From positions 1 through 20,280 of IMG/VR virus record IMGVR_UViG_3300035698_000347: a stretch of 20,280 bases of DNA, one strand, 5' to 3'. Positions within the stretch are counted from its first letter, which is position 1; each line of letters starts with the position of its first letter. The notes under the pieces are model-generated. The model was not told the DNA's origin. It did no database searches and was given only the letters and a program-made list of their open reading frames with translations. The position numbers were made by a program, and so were the translations under genes. Source of the stretch: a virus. Shown here one piece after another: positions 1 through 20,280 of this stretch.

Positions 1-164
1 AAGTGGAGTTTACCGGATGACTGCGTTATTGGTCAAACTTTCTAAATGCAAACGCAAATAGAGCGCCAGAAATGGCATTAGCAGCCTAAGGGTATGTGAG
101 GGTTGGCAACGCACCTAGTAACAGAAGCGTTGCATTTATTTTAAATAACAGAGGAAAAGATGCA
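1..164. other. Left edge and leader of the porin-like gene; no gene recognised
   Basis: All forward frames are closed by stops within the first 61 bases, so at most the last few codons of an upstream gene could be present and I cannot tell which frame. I see no tRNA cloverleaf. A 7-bp perfect inverted repeat (GCAACGC at 106-112, GCGTTGC at 127-133) followed by a T-rich run could be a weak terminator or a leader hairpin. TTTAAATA at 140-147 is one mismatch from the T4 late -10 box and could serve the next gene. Confidence 0.4.
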
Positions 165-956
165 ATGAATAAATTTTTAACGACAACAGCAATCGTGTTT
201 GCAAGTTCTACAGCTTTCGCAGAAGAAACTACTGTATTACCCCACGTCAGCATTAGTGGTGAAATAGAAACAGTAATCGCAGAAACCGCTGGAGATAAGT
301 ACGGTGCTACTACATCTTTGGATTTGGACATCGAAGCAATGCATGGAATAGCTTTTGGTACTATGGATTTTGCTATTGATTCGGGATCTAACGCAATTAC
401 ACTTGATGAATATTCGGTAGGTACAAATGTTGGAATAGCATCAGTAAGCTTTGGCCGTCAAGGTAACATTTTTGTAGAAGGCGAAACAGGAGCAACTTTA
501 CTTGACCCAGCACTAGGTACGAGTGCTATAGTTAAAGCTCATGGCGCATCTGTTGGTCTCGGTTTTACTGACATAACTGCTGACGTAACTGATATTGAAA
601 ATGTACAAGGGGCATATTCCCTTGGCGCAAGTATTTTTGATCTAGCAGTATCTGCAGATTATAATTTAAACTCAGAAGATTGGATCTTGGGTAGTCGTGC
701 AACTACAGATCTAGATAACGCAGCAATTGGTATAACAACAACTTATGGTTCAGCTGCAGAAACATTTGCTTTTGAAGCTGATGCAACTGTATTCGGTATT
801 ACTGGATATCTTGCCGGTGATGCTGACGATATGGCTCAAAATGTTGGTGGTTCATATGAAATGAATTTTGCCGGTATGGCATTAAAGTCTGGCATAGATT
901 ATAATCTAGATTCTGAAGTAATTGCCCCGTCATTCACGGCAAGCTTTGCATTCTAA
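165..956 (+). CDS. Secreted outer-membrane porin-like beta-barrel protein
   Basis: A 263-residue protein. The start at 165 is preferred over in-frame codons upstream because it follows a GAGGAAAAG ribosome site and begins directly with a classic signal peptide (MNKFL, hydrophobic core, cleavage after AFA at residue 19). The mature part is rich in Gly, Ala, Asp and Thr, shows alternating polar and hydrophobic strands, has no Cys, contains an FGRQGN segment reminiscent of alphaproteobacterial porins, and ends in Phe (TASFAF), the usual C-terminal signal of outer-membrane barrels. This points to a protein exported by the infected cell and inserted into the outer membrane. It is shorter than typical trimeric porins. 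Its role is unknown: altered permeability or superinfection exclusion are guesses. A strong terminator follows, so it is a separate transcription unit. Family assignment rests on composition and termini, not on a search. Confidence 0.6.
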   Translation: MNKFLTTTAIVFASSTAFAEETTVLPHVSISGEIETVIAETAGDKYGATTSLDLDIEAMHGIAFGTMDFAIDSGSNAITLDEYSVGTNVGIASVSFGRQGNIFVEGETGATLLDPALGTSAIVKAHGASVGLGFTDITADVTDIENVQGAYSLGASIFDLAVSADYNLNSEDWILGSRATTDLDNAAIGITTTYGSAAETFAFEADATVFGITGYLAGDADDMAQNVGGSYEMNFAGMALKSGIDYNLDSEVIAPSFTASFAF

Positions 957-4522: not shown

Positions 4523-4548
4523 TACAAAAATCTTTAGGAGAAACGGCA

Positions 4549-5479: not shown

Positions 5480-5480
5480 C

Positions 5481-6141: not shown

Positions 6142-6145
6142 TATA

Positions 6146-6346: not shown

Positions 6347-6355
6347 ATTAATCTA

Positions 6356-6384
6356 TTGACAAATACAAAAATATGTAATATAAT
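6356..6384 (+). promoter_or_regulatory. Consensus sigma70 promoter for the bilin genes
   Basis: TTGACA (6356-6361) and TATAAT (6379-6384) are separated by exactly 17 bases. Both hexamers are perfect. Transcription would start near 6391, about 30 bases before the heme oxygenase ATG. This indicates early expression by unmodified host RNA polymerase. Confidence 0.9.
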
Positions 6385-6420
6385 AAAACAATAAGACTAA
6401 GTAAAGGTGAATTTGAATTA

Positions 6421-8310: not shown

Positions 8311-8884
8311 TGAAGCATCGTTTCGAGTTTATGTCAACTATCTAGCACTTAAGAAACATTTCGATACTGATGGTTATGATTATCACAAATATAATGGAAA
8401 AATTAGAGCTTCTTTCGATAAATTTCAAACACGAAACGATGCATTCTTTTTTTATAAGTTATCGAAAAAAGAAGATCCGTTAAAAATTCTTATCGCCAAT
8501 CTAGTTCGTAATCCAAAGGCTTGGATACGAGAAATAGTCGAAGATCGTGGTGAAGAAATATATGCCGAATGGGAAAAGAGAATGGATTCTCTAACCTATT
8601 CGTATAAAATGGATTTAAAAAAACTAAAAGACAACTATCACGACAACCTAGCTGTTAACGACGGGCAGCATCCTTATATAATGACTATGTATTTCCAAAA
8701 GGAAATTTCTATTGAAACTTTTACTATACTTTCAAAGATTTCTAATGTTTATGACTATTGGGAAGAAAAAGTAGTTGACAAATTCGTTGCACGTGATATA
8801 ATAAGATTATCCAAGAAATATTATCCATTCTTGGAAATAGACCAAAAAAAGTTTTCTGCAATCACTAAAGAATACTTTTTTTAA
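8288..8884 (+). CDS. 59: gp59 helicase loader
   Basis: A 198-residue, helical, basic protein matching T4 gp59 (217 residues), which loads the gp41 helicase onto gp32-coated forked or recombination DNA. Family-typical segments are YDYHKYNGK near residue 31, TRNDAFFFYKLSKK near 48, LIANLVRNPKAWI near 69, YAEWEKRM, EISIETFTIL near 139, and YYPFLEIDQKKF near the end, each with a T4 counterpart (YDVIKYN, FFQKLSEKY, FISNLVANQDAWI, IISFETFILL). It starts 23 bases before the end of the gp33-like gene after AAGGAAG. Its partners gp32 and gp41 are encoded downstream in this window. Confidence 0.88.
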   Translation: MTSLNYANEASFRVYVNYLALKKHFDTDGYDYHKYNGKIRASFDKFQTRNDAFFFYKLSKKEDPLKILIANLVRNPKAWIREIVEDRGEEIYAEWEKRMDSLTYSYKMDLKKLKDNYHDNLAVNDGQHPYIMTMYFQKEISIETFTILSKISNVYDYWEEKVVDKFVARDIIRLSKKYYPFLEIDQKKFSAITKEYFF

Positions 8885-8892
8885 TATAAATA
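8885..8892 (+). promoter_or_regulatory. T4-type late promoter for gene 32 (TATAAATA)
   Basis: Exact match just after the gp59 stop and preceded by a T run; 76 bases upstream of the gp32 ATG. T4 gene 32 also has late expression in addition to early and middle. Confidence 0.75.
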
Positions 8893-8967
8893 GATGGTGG
8901 AATAAATCCACAACATACATCGCAATATAAACCAATGCTATATAACGCAAAACTAGGAGACACAAAT

Positions 8968-9906
8968 ATGACAATGTCATTTGATGCACTTAAAAAGAAC
9001 CGTTCATCTTCACTCGATAAGTTGAACTCACAGCTCTCACAAATCGCAACAAAGAGCTATTCAGATCCTAACGAAGGTAAATTTTGGAAACCAACACGTG
9101 ATAAAGCAGGTAACGGTTTCGCAATCATACGCTTTCTTCCTCCATCATCGGGAGAAGAAATGCCATTCGCTAGACTCTGGGACCACGGATTTCAAGGTCC
9201 AACCGGTTTGTGGTATATCGAAAACTCTCTTACGACAATCGGAAAAGACGATCCAGTTTCAGAATTTAATTCAAAGCTCTGGAACAGTGGTGTCGAACAA
9301 GATAAAGAGCAAGCTCGTAAACAAAAACGCCGCCTTAAATATATATCAAACGTTTATATAGTTAAAGATAGTGGCAACCCTGATAATGATGGAAAAGTAT
9401 TCATGTATCAGTTTGGCAAGAAAATCTTTGATAAGCTAAATGATTTGATGAACCCATCCTTTGAGGATGAAAGTCCAGTCAATCCGTTTGATTTTTGGGA
9501 AGGCGCAAACTTCCGTCTCAAAATCCGACAGTTTGAAGGATATCCAAACTACGACAAATCAGAATTTGACGGCCCATCGCCGCTATTTGAAGATGATGAT
9601 GAATTGGAGGGAGTTTGGAAGCAACAGCATTCTCTGCAAGAATTGGTTGATGAAAAGAACTTTAAATCATATGGAGATCTAAAAGCAAAAATGTATCGTG
9701 TTCTAAATCTCACTGGTGATTCTCCGCTGTCAACAAATACAGCAGATGATGATACAGATAATGATCTTGACATGAGCAAGTTTGGAAAATCTGCTGATGC
9801 ACCTACGATGAAAGAAGAAACATCTTCGGCATCAACATCGCAAACAGATAGTATTAGTGATGATGACGAAGATCTCGCAATGTTTAGAGACCTCGTTAAA
9901 GGTTAA
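8968..9906 (+). CDS. 32: gp32 single-stranded DNA-binding protein
   Basis: A 312-residue T4 gp32 homologue that coats single-stranded DNA in replication and recombination. I choose the ATG at 8968, after AGGAGA with 7-base spacing, over 8935. A basic/Ser N-terminus (KKNRSSSL, 9-16) resembles the T4 LAST motif for cooperativity. The core includes KAGNGFAIIRFLP (46-58), DHGFQG (72-77) and WYIEN (82-86), then KVFMYQFGKKIFDKL and WEGANFRLKI. The C-terminus is a long acidic, Ser/Thr-rich tail ending DDDEDLAMFRDLVKG, the protein-interaction tail. The zinc-binding cysteines of T4 gp32 are absent: DPVSEF replaces the CPVC segment and there is no Cys in the protein, although His73 is kept. This zinc-less form also occurs in marine T4-like phages as I recall. 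Confidence 0.93.
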   Translation: MTMSFDALKKNRSSSLDKLNSQLSQIATKSYSDPNEGKFWKPTRDKAGNGFAIIRFLPPSSGEEMPFARLWDHGFQGPTGLWYIENSLTTIGKDDPVSEFNSKLWNSGVEQDKEQARKQKRRLKYISNVYIVKDSGNPDNDGKVFMYQFGKKIFDKLNDLMNPSFEDESPVNPFDFWEGANFRLKIRQFEGYPNYDKSEFDGPSPLFEDDDELEGVWKQQHSLQELVDEKNFKSYGDLKAKMYRVLNLTGDSPLSTNTADDDTDNDLDMSKFGKSADAPTMKEETSSASTSQTDSISDDDEDLAMFRDLVKG

Positions 9907-9910
9907 CAAA

Positions 9911-9934
9911 GAGAAGGGGCTTCGGCCCCTTCTC
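9911..9934 (+). terminator. C(UUCG)G hairpin after gene 32, without T run
   Basis: A 10-bp perfect stem (9911-9920 with 9925-9934) with a UUCG tetraloop. Unlike the hairpin at 981 it is followed by CATATCT, not a T run, so it may be a partial terminator, a 3' mRNA-stabilising element or a processing barrier instead. Confidence 0.6.
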
Positions 9935-9953
9935 ATATCTAGGAGGTTAAAAC

Positions 9954-10280
9954 ATGGCTAATAAAATATACGAAGAAGTTTTAGATTTCGATTTTGGGTT
10001 TACTTTTATAGACGAAGAACTGCAAGAAAAAGAACTTGCGGCTGCTGACACTATTCAACAAGTAAGCTCAGAAAAGCAAACACTTGAAGATCAGCTTAAT
10101 GATTCAAAAGTTGCTGCTGATGATTTGGAATATAGATTAGAACTTTTATATAAATCTATTGTACCATTTTTAAATAATCTTTGCAAAAATCCCGATAAAT
10201 CAACAATCTTTTGGCCTGATAGAGTTTCTAAAATTCAATCCTATCAAGCTAAACTGCTTTCAATCGCAGAAGGAAAATAA
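9954..10280 (+). CDS. Conserved small helical protein between gp32 and UvsX
   Basis: A 108-residue acidic protein with a very strong ribosome site (AGGAGG). The N-terminus (YEEVLDFDFGFTFIDEEL) is hydrophobic-acidic. Residues about 25-70 are a probable coiled coil, and the C-terminus carries NPDKSTIFWPDRVSKI before a basic helix. I know similar proteins from T4-like marine phages in this region but no function. Its location, one base before uvsX and immediately after gp32, suggests involvement in recombination or replication; the acidic FDFGF segment could be a peptide that binds a partner protein. These are inferences. Confidence 0.7.
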   Translation: MANKIYEEVLDFDFGFTFIDEELQEKELAAADTIQQVSSEKQTLEDQLNDSKVAADDLEYRLELLYKSIVPFLNNLCKNPDKSTIFWPDRVSKIQSYQAKLLSIAEGK

Positions 10281-10281
10281 T

Positions 10282-11391
10282 ATGAGTCTACTATTAGACA
10301 AACTTGTGAAAAACTCTACCATTAAACTTACAGCTCAACTTACTGAGTCGAAAGTTTTTGGTAAAAAGGAAATGGCACCAACACCAGTTCCTATGGTAAA
10401 TGTAGCTCTTTCTGGTGATATCGATGGTGGATTATCCCCAGGCCTTTTGGTTTTGGCTGGTCCGTCTAAACACTTTAAGTCTGCGTTTGCGCTATTAACA
10501 GCAGCTGCATATATGAACAAATATAAAGATGCAATTTTACTGTTTTATGATTCAGAATTTGGTACACCACAAGCATATTTTGAATCGTTTGGTATTGACA
10601 TGGATCGAGTAGTTCATACACCAATTACTAATGTTGAAGAACTTAAGTTTGATATCGCAAGTCAGCTTGATGCAATTGATAAAAAAGATCATGTATGTAT
10701 TATCATTGACTCTGTAGGCAACCTTGCATCTAAGAAAGAAGTCGAAGACGCAATGAATGAAAAATCTGTTGCGGATATGTCTCGTGCAAAGGCTCTTAAA
10801 TCTTTGTTCCGTATTGTAACACCGCATCTTAATTTGAAAGATATCCCACTTATTGCCGTGAATCATACTTATCAGGAAATCGGTTTGTTTCCAAAGGCTA
10901 TCGTATCAGGCGGCACAGGCATATATTATTCGGCCACGGCTATTTGGATTGTTGGTCGCCAGCAAGACAAAGTTGGTACTGAGGTCCAAGGTTATCACTT
11001 TGTTATTAATATTGAAAAATCACGGCACGTTAAAGAGAAATCCAAAATTCCAATTACTGTATCTTGGGACGGTGGTATTGTTAAATGGTCAGGTTTGATG
11101 GACGTTGCTGAAAAGGGTGGATATCTACGTAAACCAAAGGTTGGTTGGTATGAGGCAGTAGATCCAGCAACTGGTGAAATACTTTCAGAAAAACTAATGC
11201 GAGCTAAGGAAGTAAATGACAATGGCGATTTTTGGAATATGATGTTTGAAAAAACTGATTTCAAAGCCTACGTTCACGATCGCTTTACAATCGGTGCATC
11301 TGGTAGTATTATGCGTGAAGACGATAGTAATAGCAGATCAAAGTCATTGGACGATTTGGCAGAAGCTAATAGCGAAGATGATCTAATTTAA
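10282..11391 (+). CDS. uvsX: UvsX recombinase (RecA-like)
   Basis: A 369-residue T4 UvsX homologue (T4: 391), the strand-exchange ATPase for recombination-dependent replication, acting with gp32 and gp41. Walker A is GPSKHFKS at 60-67, matching the T4 GPSKSFKS form. FYDSEFGTP (88-95) is the catalytic Glu region and CIIIDSVGNL (139-148) is Walker B. AVNHTYQEIGLFPKAIVSGG (192-211) corresponds to the DNA-binding loop region that ends GGTGIYYSA. The C-terminus is acidic (AEANSEDDLI), similar to T4 UvsX. The gene lies one base after the preceding ORF. Highly confident. Confidence 0.95.
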   Translation: MSLLLDKLVKNSTIKLTAQLTESKVFGKKEMAPTPVPMVNVALSGDIDGGLSPGLLVLAGPSKHFKSAFALLTAAAYMNKYKDAILLFYDSEFGTPQAYFESFGIDMDRVVHTPITNVEELKFDIASQLDAIDKKDHVCIIIDSVGNLASKKEVEDAMNEKSVADMSRAKALKSLFRIVTPHLNLKDIPLIAVNHTYQEIGLFPKAIVSGGTGIYYSATAIWIVGRQQDKVGTEVQGYHFVINIEKSRHVKEKSKIPITVSWDGGIVKWSGLMDVAEKGGYLRKPKVGWYEAVDPATGEILSEKLMRAKEVNDNGDFWNMMFEKTDFKAYVHDRFTIGASGSIMREDDSNSRSKSLDDLAEANSEDDLI

Positions 11392-11394
11392 TTG

Positions 11395-11423
11395 TTGACA
11401 ATTCTATGATATAGTGATATATT
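11395..11423 (+). promoter_or_regulatory. Sigma70 promoter for the gp41 helicase gene
   Basis: Perfect TTGACA (11395-11400), 17-base spacer, TATATT (11418-11423) with an extended -10 TG at 11415-11416. It starts four bases after the uvsX stop. Start of transcription near 11430 leaves a leader of about 68 bases before the helicase ATG. Confidence 0.85.
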
Positions 11424-11442
11424 AAAATTAATTACAAAGGTG

Positions 11443-11481
11443 ATGGCATTGATCTGTGATTGGTGCCATTACTCATCTTAA
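11443..11481 (+). CDS. Possible 12-codon leader peptide before gene 41
   Basis: ATG at 11443 opens MALICDWCHYSS and ends at TAA. It is the first ATG in the leader expected from the promoter at 11395. AAAGG lies only two bases upstream of the ATG, a poor spacing, so translation is doubtful. If translated it could couple or attenuate helicase expression. Low confidence. Confidence 0.2.
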   Translation: MALICDWCHYSS

Positions 11482-11497
11482 CAATGGAAAAATTTGT

Positions 11498-12928
11498 ATG
11501 ATTGAAAAAACAATATTATCTAATTTGATTTACAACGAAGAATATTGCAGAAGAGTATTCCCTTACATTAAGGAAGAATATTTCGATGATAATAGTCTTC
11601 GTAAAATCTTTTCAACATATTCGGATTATATGAACGAATATAAAGAGCCGCCATCAATTGAAGCTCTTAAAATCTCAATAGATAAACGTAAAGATCTAAA
11701 TGAAAGCGCGTATAAAGAAGTCACGAATTTAATTGATGAATTGAAGACGGACGAAAAAACAAACGAAACGTTTCTTGTTGATGAAACAGAAAAGTTCTGT
11801 CAGAATAAAGATTTGTATAATTCTATTCGTAAAGCTATTCTTATTCTTGACGGCCAAGATAAGGAAAATGATAAGGGTGCAATTCCAGGAATTCTTTCTG
11901 ATTCGCTCGGTATTAGTTTCGATACACATATTGGCCACGACTTTCTTGAAGATTTTGAGTCTAGGCATGAATACTACCACCGTAAAGAAGAACGCATTCC
12001 TTTTGACATTGATATTTTAAATAGTATCACAAAGGGTGGATTACCTCGTAAATCCATGACTGTATTACTAGCAACAACTGGTGGTGGTAAATCATTAGTT
12101 AAATGCCATATGGCCGCAGCTAGTTTAATGCATGGCAAAAACGTTTTGTATGTTACAATGGAACTTGCCGAAGAAGAGGTTGCTCGTCGTATTGATGCCA
12201 ATATTATGGACATTACACTCGATGAAGTAAAGGAAGTTCCGCTTGATGTATTTAAGAAGCAAATGGATCGTTACAAAACAAAAACTACAGGGAAGCTAGT
12301 TGTCAAAGAATATCCAACAGGTTCAGCTCACTCAGGCCATTTTAGACATCTTTTAAATGAAATGCGTCTAAAGAAAAACTTCGTACCCGATGTTGTCTTT
12401 ATTGATTATCTTAATATTTGTGCATCAGCAAGAGTAAAGGGTGCAGCCGCAGCAAATTCATATACACTAGTAAAATCTATTGCTGAAGAAATCCGTGGCC
12501 TTGCTATGGAATTTGATATTGCTATTGTAACCTCATCTCAGTTTAACCGTTCGGGATACGACAATTCTGATGTCGACTTAACAAATACCTCCGAGTCAAT
12601 GGGTATTACTCACACTGCAGATTGTATTCTTGGTCTTATTACATCAGAAGATTTAGAATCAAGAGGACAAATTATGATTAAGCAACTAAAAAATCGTTGG
12701 GGAGATTTAGGTTATTATCGTAGGTTTGTTGTAGGAATTGACCGTTCACGAATGAAACTGTTTAATCTTGAAGACGGAGCGCAACGAAACATTCAATCAG
12801 AATCATCCAATAGTAAAACAAATAACAATGATTCTGGATCGACGTTTGATAAATCTTCTTTTGGACAAAAGTGGGATATGAATTCAAACAAAAAGAAAAG
12901 TTTATTTGAAGTAGGAGAATTGCAATGA
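11498..12928 (+). CDS. 41: gp41 replicative DNA helicase (DnaB family)
   Basis: A 476-residue T4 gp41 homologue (T4: 475), the hexameric 5'-3' fork helicase working with primase and loaded by gp59. I choose ATG 11498 over GTG 11456 because MIEKTILSNLIYNEEYCRRV aligns with the T4 start MVEIILSHLIFDQAYFSKVW. The N-terminal hairpin domain is followed by RIPFDIDILNSITKGG (167-181), Walker A ATTGGGKS (192-199), the catalytic-Glu strand YVTMELAEEEVARRID (218-233), Walker B VVFIDYLNI (299-307), and TSSQFNRSGYDNSD with the sensor Gln. The C-terminus is Ser/Asn-rich. The gene is intact and carries no intein, although gp41 helicases are known hosts of split inteins in marine metagenomes. Confidence 0.95.
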   Translation: MIEKTILSNLIYNEEYCRRVFPYIKEEYFDDNSLRKIFSTYSDYMNEYKEPPSIEALKISIDKRKDLNESAYKEVTNLIDELKTDEKTNETFLVDETEKFCQNKDLYNSIRKAILILDGQDKENDKGAIPGILSDSLGISFDTHIGHDFLEDFESRHEYYHRKEERIPFDIDILNSITKGGLPRKSMTVLLATTGGGKSLVKCHMAAASLMHGKNVLYVTMELAEEEVARRIDANIMDITLDEVKEVPLDVFKKQMDRYKTKTTGKLVVKEYPTGSAHSGHFRHLLNEMRLKKNFVPDVVFIDYLNICASARVKGAAAANSYTLVKSIAEEIRGLAMEFDIAIVTSSQFNRSGYDNSDVDLTNTSESMGITHTADCILGLITSEDLESRGQIMIKQLKNRWGDLGYYRRFVVGIDRSRMKLFNLEDGAQRNIQSESSNSKTNNNDSGSTFDKSSFGQKWDMNSNKKKSLFEVGELQ

Positions 12929-13116
12929 GTTACTCAGTGAAAAAAAATAAAAACCAATACGATATTTTAGAAAAAAATACTGGAACTTTAATTCAAATTG
13001 GGCATAGTGAAAAGAACGCGAGAAATACCTGCAGGAAACTAAATTTAGGATCTGGTTTTGAAGGATGGACTCCACCATTCTTTTCTAAAAAAAATATCCT
13101 TGTTAATTTTTCGTAA
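12925..13116 (+). CDS. Small conserved phage protein
   Basis: A 63-residue protein overlapping the helicase stop (ATGA), with GAGAATTGCA upstream. It looks like an alpha/beta mini-domain: YDILEKNTGTLIQIGHSEKN (a strand pair) then ARNTCRKLNLGSGFEGWTPP. The LN.G.GF.GWTP.FF pattern is familiar from many T4-like marine phages. Function unknown; translationally coupled to the helicase. Confidence 0.7.
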   Translation: MSYSVKKNKNQYDILEKNTGTLIQIGHSEKNARNTCRKLNLGSGFEGWTPPFFSKKNILVNFS

Positions 13117-13135
13117 AGCATACCAAACACTTTTT

Positions 13136-13143
13136 TATAAATA
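13136..13143 (+). promoter_or_regulatory. T4-type late promoter (TATAAATA)
   Basis: Exact match after a T6 run, intergenic, 32 bases upstream of the ATG at 13175. It probably drives the operon of the nuclease-like gene and the fractured gene. Confidence 0.75.
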
Positions 13144-13174
13144 ATAGAAATTAAACCTATAATAGAGAATAGAT

Positions 13175-14470
13175 ATGATTTCATTTAAAAAATATGTAAG
13201 AGAGAATGCTGATATGCTTTTTACATCGCAACAAGATAAAGCAAAATTAGATAGTGCAATAACGCCTTATACTTATACTGTTAAAAATTCAACGCAAAGA
13301 AAAACAGTTTTAGTTGTTCGTTCTCAAAAAAACGATCGTGAAAAAGTAAAAAGAGACCTAGAAAAAAAATTAGATGACGCGAGTATTAGTTATGAATTAA
13401 GCACTACTGGCGGGTCTGTTGGATCTACTGTTGTAAAATTAGGTTCGCAATTAATTCAAATTACATATAAGCCAACGTCAGGCGGAATGTCTGAAACTAC
13501 TCTTAATGCAACAATCACTGAACTTGCCCCTGCGCTTGCGTTCATGGCAAAAACAAAATTTTCTAATATAGATGACTTGTATAATTTTATTTCTAGTGCA
13601 GACGGAAATAAATTAGGAGTATATGTAAATACTCGTGATGCAGCGGCTGGTAAACAATTTATTGAACAAATGCCAACGTCGTCCAAATATGCTGAAAAAA
13701 TGGAAAATGCTTTAGCTATCTTAGATTATCTAAATGATTTAAATAAGCAAACTCCAGTTAGCCAAGTATTTTGGGGCTATCGGGCAAAACCTGCTGGTAT
13801 TGCGGCATCTCATAAAGGAGATCTTTTCGTTAAATTTAAAAATGGTAATATGCTTGGAGTATCTCTTAAAGCTGGCGGTGAAAAAACCGCTGAACCACAA
13901 TTAAATACATATGTAAACAAATTCTTTGATGATTACGGCTATAGTAGAGAAAAAACAACTTTGCAGAGTGAAGTGTATAAAGCGGTTCACTCAACTATCG
14001 GTCTTCCTAAAGATTGGGATTCTAGAACAAATAAAAAATCTTCTATTCAAACAATTAATGACTACAAGAGAAAAAATGCAAGAGAGTATGAAGCAAAATA
14101 CGATCAAATGCTCGAAGTTATTCGGGGCGGTTTAATAAAGGCGGTAAACCAAAATAAAAATAAAACTATAGATTATATACAAAAACAAGTATTGAAAAAA
14201 GATGCGAGCGTTCCTTTGGTTGTTGTAAAGGCTTTTGGTAAAAAATATAAAATGGTAACAGATGAAGATGATTTAGAAACATTTTTACCAACTATAAAAA
14301 GTGTTCGCGCTTATTCGTCTACATCTTCAAAACAAAACTGGTTTATTGAATTGAGTAGCGGCCGCGAAAAGTTAACAATGAACATGTCTGTCCGCTCGAA
14401 CAAATCACCACCTGAAAATAAAATTGCTCAGGGTTTTAATCTTACTATCAAATTTAATGGAATTAAATAA
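13175..14470 (+). CDS. Conserved phage protein, possible PD-(D/E)XK-like nuclease, possibly packaged
   Basis: A 431-residue basic protein not assigned to a named family. It begins MISFKKYVRENA, similar to the next gene and in style to the T4 capsid-targeting peptide (MKTYQEFIAE). Residues 71-124 contain VKLGSQLIQITYKPTSGG and TLNATITELAPALAF. Residues 196-246 contain VFWGYRAKPAGIAASHKGD, then FKNGNMLGVSLKAGG and AEPQLNTYVN. The D216...S230-L-K232 arrangement on adjacent predicted strands resembles a PD-(D/E)XK nuclease core, with Ser in place of the usual acid. I recall related cyanophage proteins with the conserved phrase SLKAGG.TAEP.LNTYV. The C-terminal 150 residues are Lys-rich. Late expression from 13136 and a stop abutting the next ATG tie it to the fractured gene. 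Nuclease assignment is a hypothesis. Confidence 0.6.
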   Translation: MISFKKYVRENADMLFTSQQDKAKLDSAITPYTYTVKNSTQRKTVLVVRSQKNDREKVKRDLEKKLDDASISYELSTTGGSVGSTVVKLGSQLIQITYKPTSGGMSETTLNATITELAPALAFMAKTKFSNIDDLYNFISSADGNKLGVYVNTRDAAAGKQFIEQMPTSSKYAEKMENALAILDYLNDLNKQTPVSQVFWGYRAKPAGIAASHKGDLFVKFKNGNMLGVSLKAGGEKTAEPQLNTYVNKFFDDYGYSREKTTLQSEVYKAVHSTIGLPKDWDSRTNKKSSIQTINDYKRKNAREYEAKYDQMLEVIRGGLIKAVNQNKNKTIDYIQKQVLKKDASVPLVVVKAFGKKYKMVTDEDDLETFLPTIKSVRAYSSTSSKQNWFIELSSGREKLTMNMSVRSNKSPPENKIAQGFNLTIKFNGIK

Positions 14471-14962
14471 ATGTTAAGCTTTAAAAAGTTCATGACTGAA
14501 GAAAAAAACTTACACATGACGCACGCGGAAGATGCTGTTATAGATGGCGGAATTACAGGTACTCGTAACGTTATTAATTACCTACGTGATATTCGTGATA
14601 TGCTAGCAGGTAATACTAAAGCACCTGTCAACATTAGCGTTAAGTGGGACGGTTGTATTCACGAAGACACTATTGTTCTAACCAATGCCGGTGATATGAC
14701 AATCAAAGAAGTTGTTGAACGCTGTCAGTTGGATGATAATCTTATGGTAATGGGTAAGGAATTGGGTAGCCCATTACAATATGATCGCATGGTTCATATT
14801 CTAGCTGGTATGTCACAAGATGGCAAAAAGGCTTGGGTTGAAATTGAATTGGAAGATGGATCAAAACTGAAAATGACAGAAGACCACGAAGTACATACTT
14901 CTAACCGCGGTTGGGTTAAAGCTGGTGAATTAACTGAAGAGGATGATGTGACCGAATTGTAA
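14471..14962 (+). CDS. N-terminal half of a nucleotidyltransferase-like protein fused to a split-intein N-fragment
   Basis: A 163-residue protein: residues 1-61 are the N-extein (MLSFKKFMTEEKNLHMTHAE... ending SVKWDG) and residues 62-163 the intein N-fragment. The extein ends exactly with K58-W-D-G61, the motif I signature (KxDG) of the ligase/capping-enzyme nucleotidyltransferase superfamily, where Lys takes the nucleotide. The remaining domain is encoded at 15763-16821, so activity would need trans-splicing. Its start sits directly after the preceding stop with no clear ribosome site, so translation is probably coupled. The first residues resemble the neighbouring gene's N-terminus and may be a capsid-targeting peptide. 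The joined 413-residue extein resembles a conserved marine-phage family of unknown function (DUF6267 as far as I recall). Confidence 0.85.
   Translation: MLSFKKFMTEEKNLHMTHAEDAVIDGGITGTRNVINYLRDIRDMLAGNTKAPVNISVKWDGCIHEDTIVLTNAGDMTIKEVVERCQLDDNLMVMGKELGSPLQYDRMVHILAGMSQDGKKAWVEIELEDGSKLKMTEDHEVHTSNRGWVKAGELTEEDDVTEL
14654..14959 (+). other. Split-intein N-fragment (102 residues)
   Basis: It begins with Cys (the splicing nucleophile) in CIHEDTIVLTNAGDMTIKEV, a standard block A. Block B is present near the C-terminus as LKMTEDHEVHT, with the TxxH motif (T, E, D, H), followed by NRGWVKAGELTEEDDV, the usual end of a natural N-fragment. The reading frame stops just afterwards, before any C-terminal blocks. 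Confidence 0.92.
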
Positions 14963-14996
14963 AGTGTGATGGATACCGCCTCAAATTACATCTTTT

Positions 14997-15004
14997 TATA
15001 AATA
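14997..15004 (+). promoter_or_regulatory. T4-type late promoter for the HNH gene (TATAAATA)
   Basis: Exact match after a T run, 20 bases upstream of the HNH ATG and in the gap between the intein N-fragment gene and the endonuclease gene. The start of transcription would fall just before the ribosome site AAAGGAGG. Confidence 0.7.
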
Positions 15005-15023
15005 AAAATAAAAGGAGGCTAAT

Positions 15024-15671
15024 ATGACTATTGAATTCACAGAAGAAATGAAGACAAAATACATTGAGAAATACAAAGAAACGTATTCTGTATCAGAAGT
15101 ATTGAGATCATTTGATAATGGAGTTGGAAGAAGTAGAGTAGTAAAGTTATTAAAAGATGAAGGTATATACGAAGGGTTAACCGGCTCTAACTATCTCCGG
15201 AAGAAAGTTGAAAATAATGAAAAGATAATGACAGAGAGATACGGCGTTATTAATTGGGGACAGACGAAAGAAGGCGGCTACAAAAAACAAAACAAAATAC
15301 CATACCAAAAAATATCTTATTTAGATGATAAATACAGAGAATATAGAGCTGCGGTTGAAAAAGAAACAAAGAAGAATATAAAACATATAGACTTTCCAAC
15401 ATATTGTTATTATACTGGAATACAATTTGCAGACGAAGAAGGACTTGTTAATCCGAACGACCCAAGAAAGAGAAGTGTAGATCATAAGGTTCCGGTTATT
15501 ATTTGTTATTTAAACGGTATATCAGTAGAGCAAGCAGGTAGTATAGATAATCTTACTTTTGTTTTAAAATATGTAAATTCGGTTAAGTCTAACACAGAAC
15601 ACAAATCGTTTTTAGCGGTAGCGCATAAAATAAGAAAGGTTTTTATAAATGAAGGTTATAAAAGTAATTAA
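15024..15671 (+). CDS. HNH homing endonuclease inside the fractured gene
   Basis: A 215-residue free-standing endonuclease in a frame different from both intein halves. Its very strong ribosome site (AAAGGAGG) and late promoter make it an independent gene. Residues 20-50 (SVSEVLRSFDNGVGRSRVVK) look like a helix-turn-helix DNA reader. TERYGVINWGQTKEGGYKKQ (70-89) resembles the YGV.N..Q modules seen in phage homing enzymes. YCYYTG (127-132) precedes the HNH core: SVDHKVP (151-157), then D-N176-L and N185-S-V-K188, the bba-metal nuclease pattern. It probably nicks or cuts intein-less copies of the target gene, spreading the whole unit. The endonuclease family first described in fractured genes is Vsr-like; this one is HNH. 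Confidence 0.85.
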   Translation: MTIEFTEEMKTKYIEKYKETYSVSEVLRSFDNGVGRSRVVKLLKDEGIYEGLTGSNYLRKKVENNEKIMTERYGVINWGQTKEGGYKKQNKIPYQKISYLDDKYREYRAAVEKETKKNIKHIDFPTYCYYTGIQFADEEGLVNPNDPRKRSVDHKVPVIICYLNGISVEQAGSIDNLTFVLKYVNSVKSNTEHKSFLAVAHKIRKVFINEGYKSN

Positions 15672-15762
15672 ACTAAAAGAGAAGTATGAGCAATATGATA
15701 TTAGCACTACTTCCGAAAACTTTTATGTGCGAACAAACAATGGATACATATTAATTCATAAC
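15649..15762 (+). other. Split-intein C-fragment (38 residues)
   Basis: It starts MKVIKVIKLKEKYEQYDIST, the usual short basic C-fragment opening with the block F pattern YDI, continues FYVRTNNGYILIHN, and ends with the block G His-Asn pair before Ser. With the 102-residue N-fragment this makes a 140-residue mini-intein without an internal endonuclease domain. Confidence 0.92.
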
Positions 15763-16821
15763 TCGCCAGCTGTATTTGCTGGAATTGATCCTAGCGATGG
15801 TAAATTCTTTGTAGCTAAAAAGGGTATTTTTAATAAGAACCCAAAGCTATATAAAACACACGCCGATATTGATGCTGATACTATTGGCAAGGCTGAATTA
15901 AACGCAAAATTAAAAATTGCACTCGACGAGTTTTCAAAGCTCGGAATTAAGGGTGTAGTACAAGGTGATTTTTTATATGAAAAAAGCGATATTAAAGAAG
16001 ATAAGATTAATGGGGAATCGCATATTACTTTCCATCCTAATACGATTGTTTACGCTGTACCTAAATCGACTGCCCTTGCTAAAACAATACTCAAATCCAA
16101 AGTTGGAGTGGTCTGGCATACTGTATACCGAGGATCAAAACTTGAGGAAATGTCTGCAAGTTTTGGAGAAGAGATTGCAAGCGGTCTCAAAACAGTCCCG
16201 TCGGTCTGGTCAGTAGACGCAGTATTCAAAGATCAATCTGGCAACGCAACATTTACCGCAAAAGAGACTGCTGATATTACAAAGGTAATATCTCAAATTG
16301 GTTCACTGTTTAGAACAATTCCAAAAAACACGTTTGATGCTTTAAAGCCAGGATCTCAGTATGATATTAATATGCGCCTCAATACTTACATCAATACAAA
16401 GGTTCGTGCCGGCGAAAGAATTGGTAGTCCAAAAACTTTTGTTAAAGGCTTTCAGAAATACTTAAGTGATTATTATGATAAAGAAATTGATAATAAAAAA
16501 TCGCCAAAAGGTAAAGCAACCTGGCAAGCTAAAAAAGATAATGCCATGATGTTTTTCAGTAAAGTTAAACCACGTGATTTAGAAAATCTTTTTACTATGT
16601 ATAATTTAATCGTTGACGCAAAGCATACAATTATTCGTAAACTTGAAAACGTTGATGGTTTAAAAACGCTACTCAAAACTAATAATGGTTATGAGGTTAC
16701 AGGACAAGAAGGTTTTGTTGCTATTGACCGTTATGGTAAAAACGCACTAAAACTAGTCGACAGATTGCAATTTTCGTCAGCAAACTTTTCAGACAAGTAT
16801 ATTAAAGGATGGCAAAAATAA
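15649..16821 (+). CDS. Split-intein C-fragment fused to the C-terminal part of the nucleotidyltransferase-like protein
   Basis: A 390-residue protein: residues 1-38 are the intein C-fragment, ending in HN, and residue 39 (Ser) is the +1 extein residue. The ATG overlaps the HNH gene by 23 bases after AGAAAGG. After splicing the junction would read KWDG-SPAVFAG. The C-extein continues GKFFVAKKGIF, which could be motif Ia (SRNG-like), and GIKGVVQGDFLYEK, which could be motif III (DGEL-like), then HITFHPNTIVYAVP and a long Lys-rich C-terminal half. This pattern supports a divergent nucleotidyltransferase/ligase fold; motifs IV and V are not obvious, so catalytic competence is uncertain. The 352-residue C-extein is the bulk of the protein. 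Related proteins in other marine phages, as I recall, are unbroken. Confidence 0.87.
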   Translation: MKVIKVIKLKEKYEQYDISTTSENFYVRTNNGYILIHNSPAVFAGIDPSDGKFFVAKKGIFNKNPKLYKTHADIDADTIGKAELNAKLKIALDEFSKLGIKGVVQGDFLYEKSDIKEDKINGESHITFHPNTIVYAVPKSTALAKTILKSKVGVVWHTVYRGSKLEEMSASFGEEIASGLKTVPSVWSVDAVFKDQSGNATFTAKETADITKVISQIGSLFRTIPKNTFDALKPGSQYDINMRLNTYINTKVRAGERIGSPKTFVKGFQKYLSDYYDKEIDNKKSPKGKATWQAKKDNAMMFFSKVKPRDLENLFTMYNLIVDAKHTIIRKLENVDGLKTLLKTNNGYEVTGQEGFVAIDRYGKNALKLVDRLQFSSANFSDKYIKGWQK

Positions 16822-16880
16822 TGGCGATGTGGAACAAAAATTCATTGTTGACATACGTGAATACCGGCTATACCAAATAG
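16821..16880 (+). CDS. Possible 19-residue peptide after the fractured gene
   Basis: The ATG overlaps the previous stop (TAATG), like several real genes in this window, and the frame gives MAMWNKNSLLTYVNTGYTK before TAG inside the left arm of the following terminator. Translation by coupling is possible, but there is no further support. Confidence 0.22.
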   Translation: MAMWNKNSLLTYVNTGYTK

Positions 16881-16905
16881 GCAACTCTAATTTGCCTATT
16901 TTTTA
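16875..16905 (+). terminator. Rho-independent terminator after the fractured gene
   Basis: A 10-bp perfect stem (AAATAGGCAA at 16875-16884 with its complement at 16892-16901), a 7-base loop and a T run. It ends the operon of the nuclease-like and fractured genes. Confidence 0.88.
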
Positions 16906-16915
16906 ACTTTCCTCT

Positions 16916-16923
16916 AATAAATA
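16916..16923 (+). promoter_or_regulatory. Possible late promoter, one mismatch (AATAAATA)
   Basis: Intergenic, after a terminator and 43 bases before the DUF1127 ATG. The first base differs from TATAAATA. It is the best late-promoter candidate for the DUF1127 pair. Confidence 0.35.
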
Positions 16924-16966
16924 TAATTGTTAATTAAAACAATAACCATTATTAGGGGAAACTAAA

Positions 16967-17254
16967 ATGACTACAACAGTTAACTACTTACCGAAACAGA
17001 TAGTAATCACCCCAGTCGTACAACTCTTTAAGGTTGTATTTAATGCACTGGGGTCACTTCATAGGTCATATAAAAAAGCAAGAAAAGCTAGTGAAACTAT
17101 TCAAGAACTGAATAGACTAAGCAATTCTGAACTGATGGATATTGGTCTTACACGGGGTGACATCTATTCTATTGCACATCAGTCTATGTCTGATTACTCA
17201 GATAAGATTAATACTAAAGTTGGTCCTAACCAAAACCTTAAGGGGTGGGTGTAA
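16967..17254 (+). CDS. DUF1127-domain protein
   Basis: A 95-residue basic protein with AGGGGAAACTAAA before the ATG. Residues about 10-35 are hydrophobic/basic, and the DUF1127 signature is clear at about 45-67: ELNRLSNSELMDIGLTRGDI. In bacteria, above all alphaproteobacteria, short DUF1127 proteins are common; in a few species they have been linked to carbon and phosphate metabolism and to RNA regulation. A phage copy probably came from a host and could redirect host physiology. It overlaps the next gene as TAATG. The 28-residue tail after the domain is not typical of the family. Confidence 0.85.
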   Translation: MTTTVNYLPKQIVITPVVQLFKVVFNALGSLHRSYKKARKASETIQELNRLSNSELMDIGLTRGDIYSIAHQSMSDYSDKINTKVGPNQNLKGWV

Positions 17255-17427
17255 TGACTGCAATAGCATATAACCTTATCGCCGGCCCGTTTGCTGGTCT
17301 GGGCAAAAAGATTATGACTAATCTAGAAATCATTGGATATGCCCGAGCAGCTGCTCATTTGGCAAACCACGGCTTTCACGAAGAAGCAAAAAAGTGCATG
17401 GAAGAATACTCTAAGTTGCGTAAGTAA
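17254..17427 (+). CDS. Small partner of the DUF1127 protein
   Basis: A 57-residue protein; the ATG at 17254 overlaps the upstream stop and follows AAGGGGTGG, better than the GTG at 17245. After a hydrophobic start (MTAIAYNLIAGPFAGLGKKI) comes IIGYARAAAHLANHGFHEEA, then KKCMEEYSKLRK. I associate the pattern RAAA.LA..G..EEAK with short proteins found with DUF1127 genes in Rhodobacteraceae and relatives. This supports transfer of a pair from an alphaproteobacterial host. Function unknown. Confidence 0.65.
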   Translation: MTAIAYNLIAGPFAGLGKKIMTNLEIIGYARAAAHLANHGFHEEAKKCMEEYSKLRK

Positions 17428-17497
17428 ATATAAATGCTAGCACCAAGAGAGCTGAATGACCAGATGAATTGAAAAAATAAATAATTTTTATAAACAT

Positions 17498-17505
17498 TAT
17501 AAATA
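17498..17505 (+). promoter_or_regulatory. T4-type late promoter (TATAAATA) just before a terminator
   Basis: Exact match in the gap before the glycosyltransferase run, 49 bases upstream of the ATG at 17554. Its expected start point falls inside the left arm of the hairpin beginning at 17509. Confidence 0.65.
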
Positions 17506-17508
17506 TTA

Positions 17509-17534
17509 GGGTAGTCGAAAGGCTACCCTTTTTT
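17509..17534 (+). terminator. Rho-independent terminator after the DUF1127 pair
   Basis: An 8-bp stem (17509-17516 with 17521-17528, one G-T pair) closed by a GAAA tetraloop and followed by six T. It should stop readthrough from the DUF1127 genes before the glycosyltransferase run. Confidence 0.85.
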
Positions 17535-17553
17535 ATTAATATGGATTAACAGA

Positions 17554-18090
17554 ATGAAAGAATGGTTTGAAGGAAAAACTGTTGCTGTAGTTGGAAACGC
17601 TGCATCTCTCATAGAAAAAAAATACGGTGAAGAAATAGACACTGCTGATGCTGTTGTAAGAATAAACCGTGGCGGTTATAGGTTTCCGCAATTCGAAAAA
17701 CAAATGGGTAAAAAACTCAACGTGTGGTGTGTGCAAAACATACGCCAAAATAAAAAGTGGATTCAAAATCCGTTAATAAAATCGGCTCATATAATGCAAA
17801 TGGATACGATAGATATATCTCCACAGTTTATAGAAATGGCTGATATGGTGTTTACCAAAAAAGATAGACATGCGTTAGATAAAAGCTTGCCAAAGAAATC
17901 TTCTACAGGTCTTAGGGTTCTTTATTATATAGCCAAACACAATCCAGAAAAAGTTTTTGTATATGGCTTTGATTGGAAAGAAACGTATTCTTGGCATGAA
18001 AAAAGAAAATGTATAGCACACAACTTTGAGGAAGAAAAGAAGTATTGCTATGATAACTTTTTTAATAACCAATTTGAATTAAGGAATTGA
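17554..18090 (+). CDS. Glycosyltransferase family 29 (sialyltransferase-like) protein
   Basis: A 178-residue protein with the sialyltransferase motifs. Motif L is VAVVGNAASL (10-19) followed by G..ID.AD.VVRINRGG (25-41). Motif S is SSTGLRVLYYIAKHN...VFVYGFDW (116-141). A His near 156 followed by acidic residues (HNFEEEKKY) is a possible motif VS. Family GT29 transfers sialic acid or related nonulosonic acids from CMP-sugars; short GT29-like proteins also occur in marine phages, where the donor is unknown. The length is well under that of animal enzymes and there is no membrane anchor. First gene of a glycosyltransferase run; the target (phage particle, phage DNA or host surface) cannot be told. 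Confidence 0.85.
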   Translation: MKEWFEGKTVAVVGNAASLIEKKYGEEIDTADAVVRINRGGYRFPQFEKQMGKKLNVWCVQNIRQNKKWIQNPLIKSAHIMQMDTIDISPQFIEMADMVFTKKDRHALDKSLPKKSSTGLRVLYYIAKHNPEKVFVYGFDWKETYSWHEKRKCIAHNFEEEKKYCYDNFFNNQFELRN

Positions 18091-18091
18091 A

Positions 18092-19144
18092 ATGAACTTT
18101 TTCGTGGCATCATCTTCAAAGGCTACTGCGCATATAGCAGAAGTATTGTGCTCGCCAAGAATTAAGTATTTCTCTGAAAATACTACTATACCAAAGCATG
18201 TAATGCCAAAGGACTTTAAACACCACTTTGATAATTCTGATGCTTTAATACTCAACGGTACATGGGGTTCCAAACTAAGAAAGAAATTGTATTTGCCAAA
18301 GTGCGAGAATGGAGTCTGGAAAGATGGGAATATTCCTAGACACATTTACAAGGGAAACAAACTACCTGACAAAAGCAGATTTGCAATATTGGATTACATT
18401 AATTCAGAACTAGTGCTACTTGCGCGGAAACAGAAAAAGCCGATTATCGTTTTAGAGAGTGCAACTATTTCTCGAGCCGAAAAGAATTATGCTAAAGATT
18501 ACGATCATAAAAATTTTGTAAGGATTAGCTTGGACAATTGGTCATACGGTGACGGCAAATGGTTGGATGAAAACAATGTGGACAACATAAGAACTGTAAA
18601 TGCATCGCGTCTTTATAATCACCAATGGAAATCAGAGAAAGAAGGTAGCATATACATATTTACCGGTCTTGAGACAGACCCAACTAGTACCATGCCAATC
18701 GAACAATTTATCACAAGTTCTATAAAAAAAATAAGAAACCATACAAATAAAAGAATATGTATAAAAGTACATCCTGGCTCAAAAAATAATAAAGCAATCG
18801 GACTCAAGTTAAAAAACTACGAGAACGTAGATTTAATAGAAAAACGTGTTCCTATTCAAAACTTCTATCAGGACATGTACTGCGCAGTGATAGACAATTC
18901 AACGAGCATCTTTGAACTAATAGACGCAGGAATACCAACTTTCTGCTCAGACACAAACTTTGGATCTTTATTACATAACACAGATCTAAATAATATATGC
19001 GATCCCTACTTCGCGACTCAAAAAGAAATACTTAACTGGACCAATAAAATGTCCTGCACTGAATTTACTAAAAAAGACATCAGTTCACCAAACATAGTGC
19101 ATATACTCGAAAAGCTAGTAAGGAAGAATAAGGAATTCAAATGA
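18092..19144 (+). CDS. Probable glycosyl- or glycerophosphate-transferase, GT-B-like
   Basis: A 350-residue protein starting one base after the GT29 stop. The C-terminal part looks like the donor-binding half of GT-B enzymes of the capsule or CDP-glycerol type: RICIKVHPGS (221-230), then VDLIEKRVPIQNFYQDMYCA, and DNSTSIFELIDAGIPTF (268-284), where an Asn-Ser-Thr segment and an E..D.GIP helix are characteristic. The N-terminal half (ALILNGTWGS; KKPIIVLESATISRAE; VRISLDNWSYGDGKW) resembles uncharacterised phage glycan proteins. No membrane segments. It overlaps the next gene by four bases (ATGA). The specific reaction is unknown. Confidence 0.6.
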   Translation: MNFFVASSSKATAHIAEVLCSPRIKYFSENTTIPKHVMPKDFKHHFDNSDALILNGTWGSKLRKKLYLPKCENGVWKDGNIPRHIYKGNKLPDKSRFAILDYINSELVLLARKQKKPIIVLESATISRAEKNYAKDYDHKNFVRISLDNWSYGDGKWLDENNVDNIRTVNASRLYNHQWKSEKEGSIYIFTGLETDPTSTMPIEQFITSSIKKIRNHTNKRICIKVHPGSKNNKAIGLKLKNYENVDLIEKRVPIQNFYQDMYCAVIDNSTSIFELIDAGIPTFCSDTNFGSLLHNTDLNNICDPYFATQKEILNWTNKMSCTEFTKKDISSPNIVHILEKLVRKNKEFK

Positions 19145-19932
19145 AAAAAATAAATGCAGTAACTTGTTTTAGTCTAAAAGGTTGGAGAGAGACTGGTGGT
19201 CTATTAGTAAATGGCTTTATTAAATATTGGCCTAAAGAAACAACTCTTACCGTGTACGTTGATGATCCAATTCCAAAGAAGGATCTAATACGCGACCCTA
19301 GAGTAAAGTACGAGATACTCAATCACAAAGATCTTTTGGCGTTTAAAAATAGACACAAGAATAATACAGAAGCAAACGGAGGTGGCAAGTATTTAGTGAA
19401 GGGTGCTAAAAACTATAAGTACGATGCTGTTCGTTTTAGTCATAAGGTGTTTACTCTGTTTCAATTTCTAGAAACAAATGACACCGACATTCTTATATGG
19501 CTTGACGGTGATAGTAGAACACATTCGCCTGCTAGTATAAATAACATTAACAGTTGGTTGCCAACAGGTAAATTTGCTGGGTATCTTGCTCGTCCTTGGA
19601 TGTATACAGAAACAGGGTTCCATATTTTTGACGTAAAGCACAAAATAGCAAATGATTTTTTAAATATGTGGAAGCAATATTATTTAGACGATAGCATTTT
19701 TCAATTAACAATGTGGACTGATTGCCATACGTACGACGCTGCTAAAACTCACTTTGAAGATTTGCATTGGTTTAATCTTAGTCCTCCTGTTAAAAACAAC
19801 CACCCTTTTATTAATGGCCCGCTTGGCGAATTCATGGATCATATGAAGGGTCCTCGTAAAGCAAAAGGTACAAGTCATAAAAAAGATTTGGTAGTTCGAA
19901 GAAAAAATACTTATTGGGATAACGTAAAATGA
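19141..19932 (+). CDS. Probable GT-A glycosyltransferase
   Basis: A 263-residue protein. A D-G-D triplet at 122-124, in DILIWLDGDSRTH, follows a hydrophobic strand as in the DxD metal/nucleotide-sugar site of GT-A folds. Upstream lie TLTVYVDDP (35-43) and YDAVRFSHKVFTLFQFLE (94-111), the typical helix before the DxD strand. Downstream, TETGFHIFDVKH (about 155-167) resembles the 'E.G...F' acceptor region. Similar proteins occur in marine phage glycosyltransferase runs. Acceptor and sugar unknown. It overlaps both neighbours by four bases. Confidence 0.65.
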   Translation: MKKINAVTCFSLKGWRETGGLLVNGFIKYWPKETTLTVYVDDPIPKKDLIRDPRVKYEILNHKDLLAFKNRHKNNTEANGGGKYLVKGAKNYKYDAVRFSHKVFTLFQFLETNDTDILIWLDGDSRTHSPASINNINSWLPTGKFAGYLARPWMYTETGFHIFDVKHKIANDFLNMWKQYYLDDSIFQLTMWTDCHTYDAAKTHFEDLHWFNLSPPVKNNHPFINGPLGEFMDHMKGPRKAKGTSHKKDLVVRRKNTYWDNVK

Positions 19933-20280
19933 TATATTCTTTTATGTCAGGCAAAGGAGAACAAGATCTTTATGTAAGGCATTTTGGTGCTTCTGTCGGT
20001 GCAAAGCTGGTTTGGACAAAACATTTTTTTACAAAAACACAAGGTAACAGTCAAGTACCGGGCAGTATTAGAAAACGGCCGCTACCACAGAACGTAACTG
20101 GAATTATATTTGCAGGCATGCTCCGTGGAAACGCGCATTTATTTCAATTGGCGAAGCAATATAATATTGATTTTTATTACATTGATCATGCGTATTTTAA
20201 CTCAGGATATAAAAATCCACACTGGATGCGGATTATAAAAAACGGATTTGCTCAGAACGCAATCATTTCTCAAAGAGATA
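19929..20280 (+). CDS. Partial gene, glycan-related phage protein, cut by the window edge
   Basis: The ATG overlaps the previous stop (ATGA at 19929-19932) and the frame stays open for 117 codons to the right edge. It begins MIYSFMSGKGEQDLYVRHFG and contains VTGIIFAGMLRGNAHLFQLA, then YYIDHAYFNSGYKNPHWMRI. The DHAYF.SGY...W.RI.KNG pattern is familiar from phage and bacterial surface-polysaccharide proteins next to glycosyltransferases; no named family can be assigned from this fragment. Confidence 0.7.
   Translation, partial: MIYSFMSGKGEQDLYVRHFGASVGAKLVWTKHFFTKTQGNSQVPGSIRKRPLPQNVTGIIFAGMLRGNAHLFQLAKQYNIDFYYIDHAYFNSGYKNPHWMRIIKNGFAQNAIISQRD

Follow-up and report, generated by a model that had tools for sequence, protein, structure and literature searches.

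A phage glycosyltransferase cassette with three small GT29 proteins and a probable CMP-Kdo donor

The locus

The right end of the virus record IMGVR_UViG_3300035698_000347 (20,280 bases, the whole of which is called the window below) carries a run of four closely packed genes on one strand, at 17554-20280 (Table 1). The first of them encodes a small protein of glycosyltransferase family 29 (GT29), the family of all animal sialyltransferases. The run is real and not a product of chance, because it combines a profile match, invariant motifs, recognisable folds and purifying selection. Its genes overlap or abut, as an initial annotation of the window had described, with gaps of +1, -4 and -4 bases (computed on the same run in a second contig, L003). 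T4-like replication genes lie in the window as well: UvsX/RecA was recognised by Pfam, and we read two other genes as probably DnaB-like and gp32-like.

Table 1. Features of the window discussed in the text (aa, amino acids).
Feature	Coordinates	Strand	Basis
GT29 paralogue A, 178 aa; probable CMP-ulosonate (Kdo) transferase	17554..18090	+	PF00777, motifs, predicted fold
GT-B-like protein, 350 aa; predicted fold nearest retaining beta-Kdo transferases	18092..19144	+	model, HP and NS(S/T) motifs
DxD protein, 263 aa; putative GT-A-like glycosyltransferase	19141..19932	+	invariant D122-x-D124
Relative of the 350-aa protein, N-terminal 117 of 295 aa; the window ends within the gene	19929..20280	+	full copies in L003:12376-13263 and L004
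Porin-like gene (landmark)	96..956	+	authors' reading; no Pfam match

Public virus contigs scanned with GT29 gave 20 loci. Two of these, L003 and L004, match window positions 7554-20280 at 99.87% and 99.95% and extend further to the right, where the run becomes a cassette of ten genes; the window covers the first three and part of the fourth. In order, the cassette encodes GT29A, the 350-aa protein, the DxD protein (263 aa), the 295-aa protein, a ColD-like enzyme (392 aa), GMD (333 aa), a short-chain dehydrogenase/reductase (SDR, 179 aa), a GT8 protein (225 aa) and two further GT29 paralogues, GT29B (169 aa) and GT29C (186 aa), with intergenic gaps of only -22 to +6 bases. The next gene, which starts 42 bases past the cassette and is not counted in it, encodes a phage protein of 764 aa that combines cytidylyltransferase-like and DUF5824 domains. 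All three GT29s are seen in 16 of the 20 loci, and sequence ends truncate the remaining four (L010, L012, L014 and L020). The initial suggestion that the genes make a defined glycan is supported, and the run is larger than was described.

The three GT29 proteins

GT29A matches PF00777 with an E-value of 9.8e-14 and 51.8 bits (cut-off 23). The cut-off was passed in 13 of 13 related virus records, and none of 14 control genomes matched; against PHROG and NCBIfam, no useful match was obtained for any of the four window proteins. Among 28 aligned phage paralogues (10 of A, 9 of B and 9 of C), the L-motif residues G14, N15, E27-I28-D29 and R36 are identical in 28/28, as are G119-L120 of the S motif and Y137-G138, D140-W141, H156 and E161. 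H156, E161 and the nucleotide-side motif residues are also invariant in seven bacterial rows of a further alignment (A4). H156 and E161 form an H-x4-E pair near the C-terminus, which we take to be the VS motif (a name drawn from PMC5811610). The initial annotation had proposed a GT29 protein of 178 residues that keeps motifs L and S, and had named the lack of a GT29 profile match, or loss of the motif residues in relatives, as evidence to the contrary: both were looked for and neither occurred. No cysteine is invariant across the phage paralogues, and bacterial GT29s are likewise reported to be without a conserved cysteine pair (PMC5811610; here and below, papers given by PMC number are cited from the accessible part of their text).

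The predicted structure of GT29A agrees with the family assignment. The AlphaFold2 model has a predicted local distance difference test score (pLDDT) of 91.6, and its best solved counterpart in the VIA comparison is ST3Gal1 (2wnf; Z 15.9, root-mean-square deviation 2.4, 164 of 178 residues aligned). The top 14 rows of that comparison are all animal GT29 structures (Z 13.4-15.9), with GT42 next at Z 12.7, and Foldseek ranks 1-30 agree. The aligned range ends at model residue 178 and ST3Gal1 residue 341; if the last 22 residues align ungapped, H156 would fall on ST3Gal1 residue 319, which we take to be the catalytic base. Paralogues A, B and C each form their own clade in the tree (100/99, 100/99 and 99/94), and therefore the triplication predates the spread of these phages. 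All three genes are under purifying selection, with median ratios of nonsynonymous to synonymous polymorphism (pN/pS) of 0.27, 0.23 and 0.28 for A, B and C.

Proteins of just 169-186 aa might be thought too small for a transferase, and one could suppose that they are relatives of the fold reused for binding or for some other transfer rather than active ulosonate transferases. Paralogue C has a threonine at the position of His148 in A and B, and other CMP/NTP-binding folds (SteA, HPPK and Maf) align to the model too. We consider this very unlikely, given the residues kept invariant across phage and bacterial rows, the strong purifying selection and the full-length alignment to ST3Gal1.

Neighbouring transferases

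No family of Pfam, PHROG or NCBIfam matches the 350-aa protein, none of 20 members scanned matches a Kdo (3-deoxy-D-manno-oct-2-ulosonic acid) transferase family, and a PDB profile search brought no credible match. Its model (pLDDT 79.6, predicted template modelling score 0.80) gives support at the level of fold only: Foldseek places KpsC first (8fux, E 1.3e-6) and also finds KrkA, and VIA places WbbB first (Z 14.2) and KpsC at Z 13.6, with KpsC, KrkA and WbbB together spanning Z 11.5-14.2 and other GT-B folds Z 10-12. The predicted fold would put the protein nearest to the retaining Kdo transferases KpsC (GT107), WbbB (GT99) and KrkA. It differs from these enzymes in its low identity (10-14%) and lack of a profile match, and a WbbB-type nucleophile was not identified.

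The 295-aa protein, complete in the longer contigs, is a divergent relative of the 350-aa protein in the same cluster and has a weak match to PF20471 (putative glycosyltransferase, E 0.003, below cut-off). The HP and NS(S/T) motifs are kept by the 350-aa type and by a 301-aa type, HP being present in 12/12 such rows versus 0/8 of the 295-aa type. The DxD protein has no profile match and no credible PDB match by profile search; its D122-x-D124 is invariant in 11/11 aligned relatives, and phages MW202713 and Pelagibacter phage Mosig carry relatives of it. Median pN/pS is 0.52, 0.41 and 0.21 for the 350-aa, 295-aa and DxD genes. The initial view of these three genes as GT-B-like, DxD-containing and glycan-related, in the order in which they lie, is borne out.

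Nucleotide-sugar supply

Genes for making a CMP-sugar lie to the left of the cassette. We searched 13 related virus records for NeuB, PF02348, PF00793, WaaA and SIS/KdsD. KdsA (PF00793) is present in 6/6 records that reach at least 20 kb upstream of GT29A, at about 18-19 kb; the other seven end before that point, and G013 qualifies only by wrapping round ends that meet inside KdsA. A CMP-sugar synthetase (PF02348) occurs in three of the 13 (G004, G005 and G006), about 18 kb left of GT29A, adjoining the KdsA-like gene and a cupin. The phage KdsA exceeds the KdsA equivalog cut-offs (329 vs 242; 315.8 vs 314), and the synthetase's best profile matches are all KdsB, as are all 13 of its PDB matches at E 1e-4. 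A synthetase that is KdsB-like and next to KdsA points to Kdo, an eight-carbon ulosonic acid. The same genes can be placed beside the window itself: a contig with the same sample code as L003 (L074) is 99.96% identical to window 1-7229, and its intact kdsB, preceded by KdsA, stops 366 bases to the left of the first window base, shortly before the porin-like gene; L075 (98.2%) carries cupin, KdsA and KdsB. WaaA and SIS/KdsD were found in 0/13 records each. The phage gives KdsA and sometimes KdsB, and would therefore depend on its host for the other steps.

KdsA in L074 may also be the site of an insertion (L074:1-1503, just left of the window): the gene is followed by a 222-aa open reading frame (ORF) with no Pfam match, after which the KdsA C-terminus occurs again. 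The stranded C-terminus is 99.7% like the L075 gene, and the in-frame copy is only 86% and then 69% like it. This looks like a homing-type element that brought its own C-terminus.

A second nucleotide sugar appears to be made within the cassette. The ColD-like enzyme scores 376 bits to PDB 2gms, against 150 for RfbH-type enzymes and 108 for perosamine synthases, and its SHH aligns to the SHH of ColD, with the active-site histidine that replaces the lysine of pyridoxal phosphate (PLP) enzymes. GMD matches 1rpn at E 7e-104 and falls below the NCBIfam equivalog cut-off (368 vs 415). Because of these two matches, GDP-4-keto-3,6-dideoxymannose is the likely product; the 179-aa SDR has no PDB match at 1e-3, and with no close solved relative for it the final reduced sugar is not fixed. 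GDP-perosamine was considered as the second sugar and rejected, since the PLP enzyme is ColD-like and perosamine synthases are far behind; a perosamine-type or Kdo8N aminotransferase (5k8b, 78 bits) was rejected on the same ColD comparison. The rightward extension proposed in the initial annotation led to the GDP-sugar genes; the CMP-sugar synthetase named there as an example lies on the left instead.

The cassette also provides a natural swap. In five of the 20 loci (L015-L019), the ColD/GMD/SDR block is replaced by genes for a hexapeptide acyltransferase, a GFO/IDH/MocA oxidoreductase and a DegT-type aminotransferase. The best matches of the L015 aminotransferase, WbpE and QdtB included, are true aminotransferases with the lysine aligned, and the L015 oxidoreductase has no PDB match at 1e-15; the block is presumably a WbpB/E/D-type pathway. 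All three GT29s are retained in this group, and KdsA is kept in both members that reach far enough (G010 and G011). Because the GT29 triad and KdsA persist through the swap, the swapped sugar is unlikely to be the GT29 donor.

Two further gene arrangements were seen in these loci. The cassette of one relative (L009:12482-15623) also contains a PEP (phosphoenolpyruvate) carboxykinase (PF01293, 298 bits) and an ORF that resembles class I aldolases (PF00274, below cut-off), and at L015:166-2553 an ORF of 300 aa with a NUMOD3 motif interrupts a uvsX-like gene.

Cellular relatives and the choice of donor

Genome contigs scanned with the phage GT29 alignment gave 23 loci in 22 bacterial genomes, all 22 with PF00777. 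In the tree (which omits L070, a weak and partial match, and the weak second match of L051 on its E-value), the phage GT29s are sister to an 11-row clade of Rhizobiales and Rhodobacterales; several branches are long, and such joins may be false. A KdsB match above 140 bits is present in 10/11 genomes of this alphaproteobacterial clade. Three of its loci (L060, L062 and L063) have the order lipid A acyltransferase, WaaA, GT29, KdsD, a fourth (L059) has WaaA, GT29, KdsD, and in a fifth (L056) WaaA lies 1 kb upstream of GT29. Some bacterial GT29 domains are fused to GT4, to a methyltransferase, or to DUF4422 and GT8 (L053:4419-6158, L057:8804-10543, L052:9287-10522 and L065:1252-4107).

Given that the phages carry KdsA and in some cases KdsB, we favour, with moderate confidence, a reading in which the GT29s use CMP-Kdo and help to build a glycan that contains Kdo and a 3,6-dideoxyhexose, probably on host lipopolysaccharide (LPS). 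The donor could instead be a host-supplied CMP-nonulosonate (sialic, legionaminic or pseudaminic acid), with phage KdsA and KdsB serving only ordinary host LPS synthesis. The solved GT29 structures that were found are all sialyltransferases; in 4/22 bacterial genomes NeuB and NeuA are no more than 10 kb away from GT29; and one Rhodobacterales locus (L182) holds NeuA-like, NeuB-like, WaaA and GT29 genes together. Against this, NeuB is absent from 13/13 phage records, as it is from 10/11 genomes of the nearest cellular clade, and the NeuB-linked GT29s all lie beyond a 100/98 branch that separates them from the phage clade (of the 22 genomes, 5 have a strong NeuB match, 3 a weak one below 32 bits and 14 none). 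We regard a nonulosonate donor as unlikely, and the initial suggestion that the glycan might contain a nonulosonic acid is not upheld, with NeuB missing and the synthetase KdsB-like beside KdsA.

Several observations weigh against CMP-Kdo as the donor. First, not all prokaryotic GT29s can be Kdo enzymes, because four of the 22 adjoin NeuB and NeuA. Second, a wider sample of Rhodobacterales (56 of 292 genomes carry GT29, and 40 of 59 GT29 places were examined) has waaA on the same strand within 2 kb of GT29 in just 5/40 loci, on the other strand in one and not at all in 34, and NeuB-like matches (28% identity) in 2/40. The waaA-GT29-kdsD arrangement is thus real but a minority, which weakens the claim that all compact alphaproteobacterial GT29s are Kdo enzymes; the Kdo link of the cellular proteins is supported but not universal. 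Third, among 36 distant phage GT29 loci (L192-L227) KdsA occurs once and KdsB and NeuB/NeuA never. Fourth, the phage KdsB scores below curated cut-offs (162 vs 193) and is absent from three of the six records that have KdsA, and a stretch of 18 kb that includes replication genes separates both genes from the cassette, so that their Kdo could just feed host WaaA. Finally, the model of the 350-aa protein is of middling confidence (pLDDT 79.6), and its identity to Kdo transferases is as low as noted above.

A proposed glycan and its acceptor

The Kdo reading can be set out as a sequence of steps. The analysis shows the genes with their families, folds, conservation and linkage, and from these we infer the donor, the acceptor and the benefit. 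The cassette would belong to a T4-like phage of a Gram-negative, probably alphaproteobacterial, host. The phage would make or boost CMP-Kdo through KdsA and, in some phages, KdsB, with the host providing KdsC and KdsD. A colitose-type GDP-3,6-dideoxyhexose would come from GMD, then the ColD-like 3-dehydratase and perhaps the short SDR. Roughly seven small transferases, namely the three GT29s, the two KpsC/WbbB-like proteins, the DxD protein and the GT8 protein, would assemble the oligosaccharide: GT29A, B and C, and possibly the 350-aa protein, might add Kdo at different places, and the DxD, 295-aa and GT8 proteins other sugars. The acceptor would probably be cytoplasmic already, most likely the host lipid A-core. 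The altered cell surface could then keep out competing phages; where the accessible text of two papers discusses what phages gain from LPS genes, exclusion of other phages is the most frequent proposal (PMC5332604; PMC7029224).

A cytoplasmic acceptor, whether lipid A-core or a virion protein, is favoured because no flippase, polymerase, priming transferase or ligase was matched among the cassette proteins scanned. The same absence suits the placing of the glycan on capsid or tail-fibre proteins rather than on host LPS, since a cytoplasmic protein acceptor needs none of these enzymes; the donor chemistry would be unchanged. Such a destination is somewhat unlikely: Kdo, ColD-type sugars and GT8 are LPS-type parts, and the published reading of pelagimyophage GT8 genes favours a change of the O-chain (PMC7029224, in part). 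Of the three destinations named initially (particle, DNA and host surface), DNA is the least likely.

More tentatively, and on balance doubtfully, the compact prokaryotic GT29 branch of phages and alphaproteobacteria may be a lineage of Kdo transferases. In that case the transfer of sialic acid in animals would be one later use of an older CMP-ulosonate enzyme, and the phages would carry its smallest known forms, in threes with different acceptors.

Other features of the window

To the left of the cassette, the porin-like gene and a class 3 lipase at 4549-5277 (PF01764, 86 bits) suggest that this region, too, is aimed at the cell envelope; the porin-like protein is read as secreted. A DUF1127 protein (PF06568, 38.9 bits) and a second small ORF immediately precede the cassette, at 16967-17427, and hint at a proteobacterial host. 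At 6421-7666 lies a pair of genes for heme oxygenase and ferredoxin-dependent bilin reductase (PF01126, PF05996), which resembles that of PcyX phages as described in the accessible part of PMC11480375. Between 14471 and 16821 a DUF6267 gene is interrupted by an intein: the N half carries an intein-splicing start (PF14890, scoring below its cut-off), and between it and the C half lies a separate ORF of 215 aa with no Pfam match (15024-15671). An intein-free allele with an uninterrupted reading frame exists at L007:7162-8403, and the insertion looks like a split intein enclosing a free-standing gene.

Relation to known systems and significance

Parts of this picture are already known. Bacterial GT29 sialyltransferase-like proteins have been described (23 sequences; PMC5811610), and they share with the phage set the PF00777 profile, the L and S motifs, the C-terminal H-x4-E and the lack of a conserved cysteine pair. 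In contrast to them, the phage proteins come as three paralogues per genome, are only 169-186 aa long and are linked to KdsA/KdsB rather than NeuB/NeuA. In plants, rhamnogalacturonan II depends for its Kdo on the GT29 protein RCKT1/MGP2 (PMC11288761), which has the family and the proposed CMP-Kdo donor in common with the phage proteins; it differs in being eukaryotic and membrane-anchored, and its evidence is genetic rather than enzymatic. Viral kdsA and kdsB genes (PMC10653327) and pelagimyophage GT8 genes (PMC7029224) are known, and TARA_ERS478052_N000008 carries Gmd, WcaG, ManC, NeuA, KdsA and WaaG (PMC5332604). These marine T4-like phage LPS-gene sets resemble the present one in their LPS-type auxiliary genes, KdsA and a CMP-sugar synthetase included, and the accessible parts of the three papers mention neither GT29 nor ColD. 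As in the GDP-colitose pathway (GMD, ColD and ColC), GMD and a ColD-like enzyme stand side by side here; the third gene differs, being the short SDR with no PDB match, and leaves the end product unfixed. A search of titles and abstract openings, covering few subscription journals and preprints, turned up no paper that describes GT29 in a phage or links GT29 to KdsA/KdsB; a paper on coral viruses (PMC11656804) contains mentions of both GT29 and phage. GenBank phages gave remote GT29 matches only (three records, 24-33% identity).

The accessible text of PMC5811610 proposes a bacterial origin of GT29 and does not settle what the prokaryotic members transfer. A phage with three GT29 proteins of 170-190 residues and a CMP-Kdo supply would offer a small, soluble and testable answer on the donor of prokaryotic GT29s. 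It would also be a case in which one phage holds both the sugar supply and the matching transferases for an apparently defined surface glycan, with one sugar pathway that can be swapped and another that is kept.

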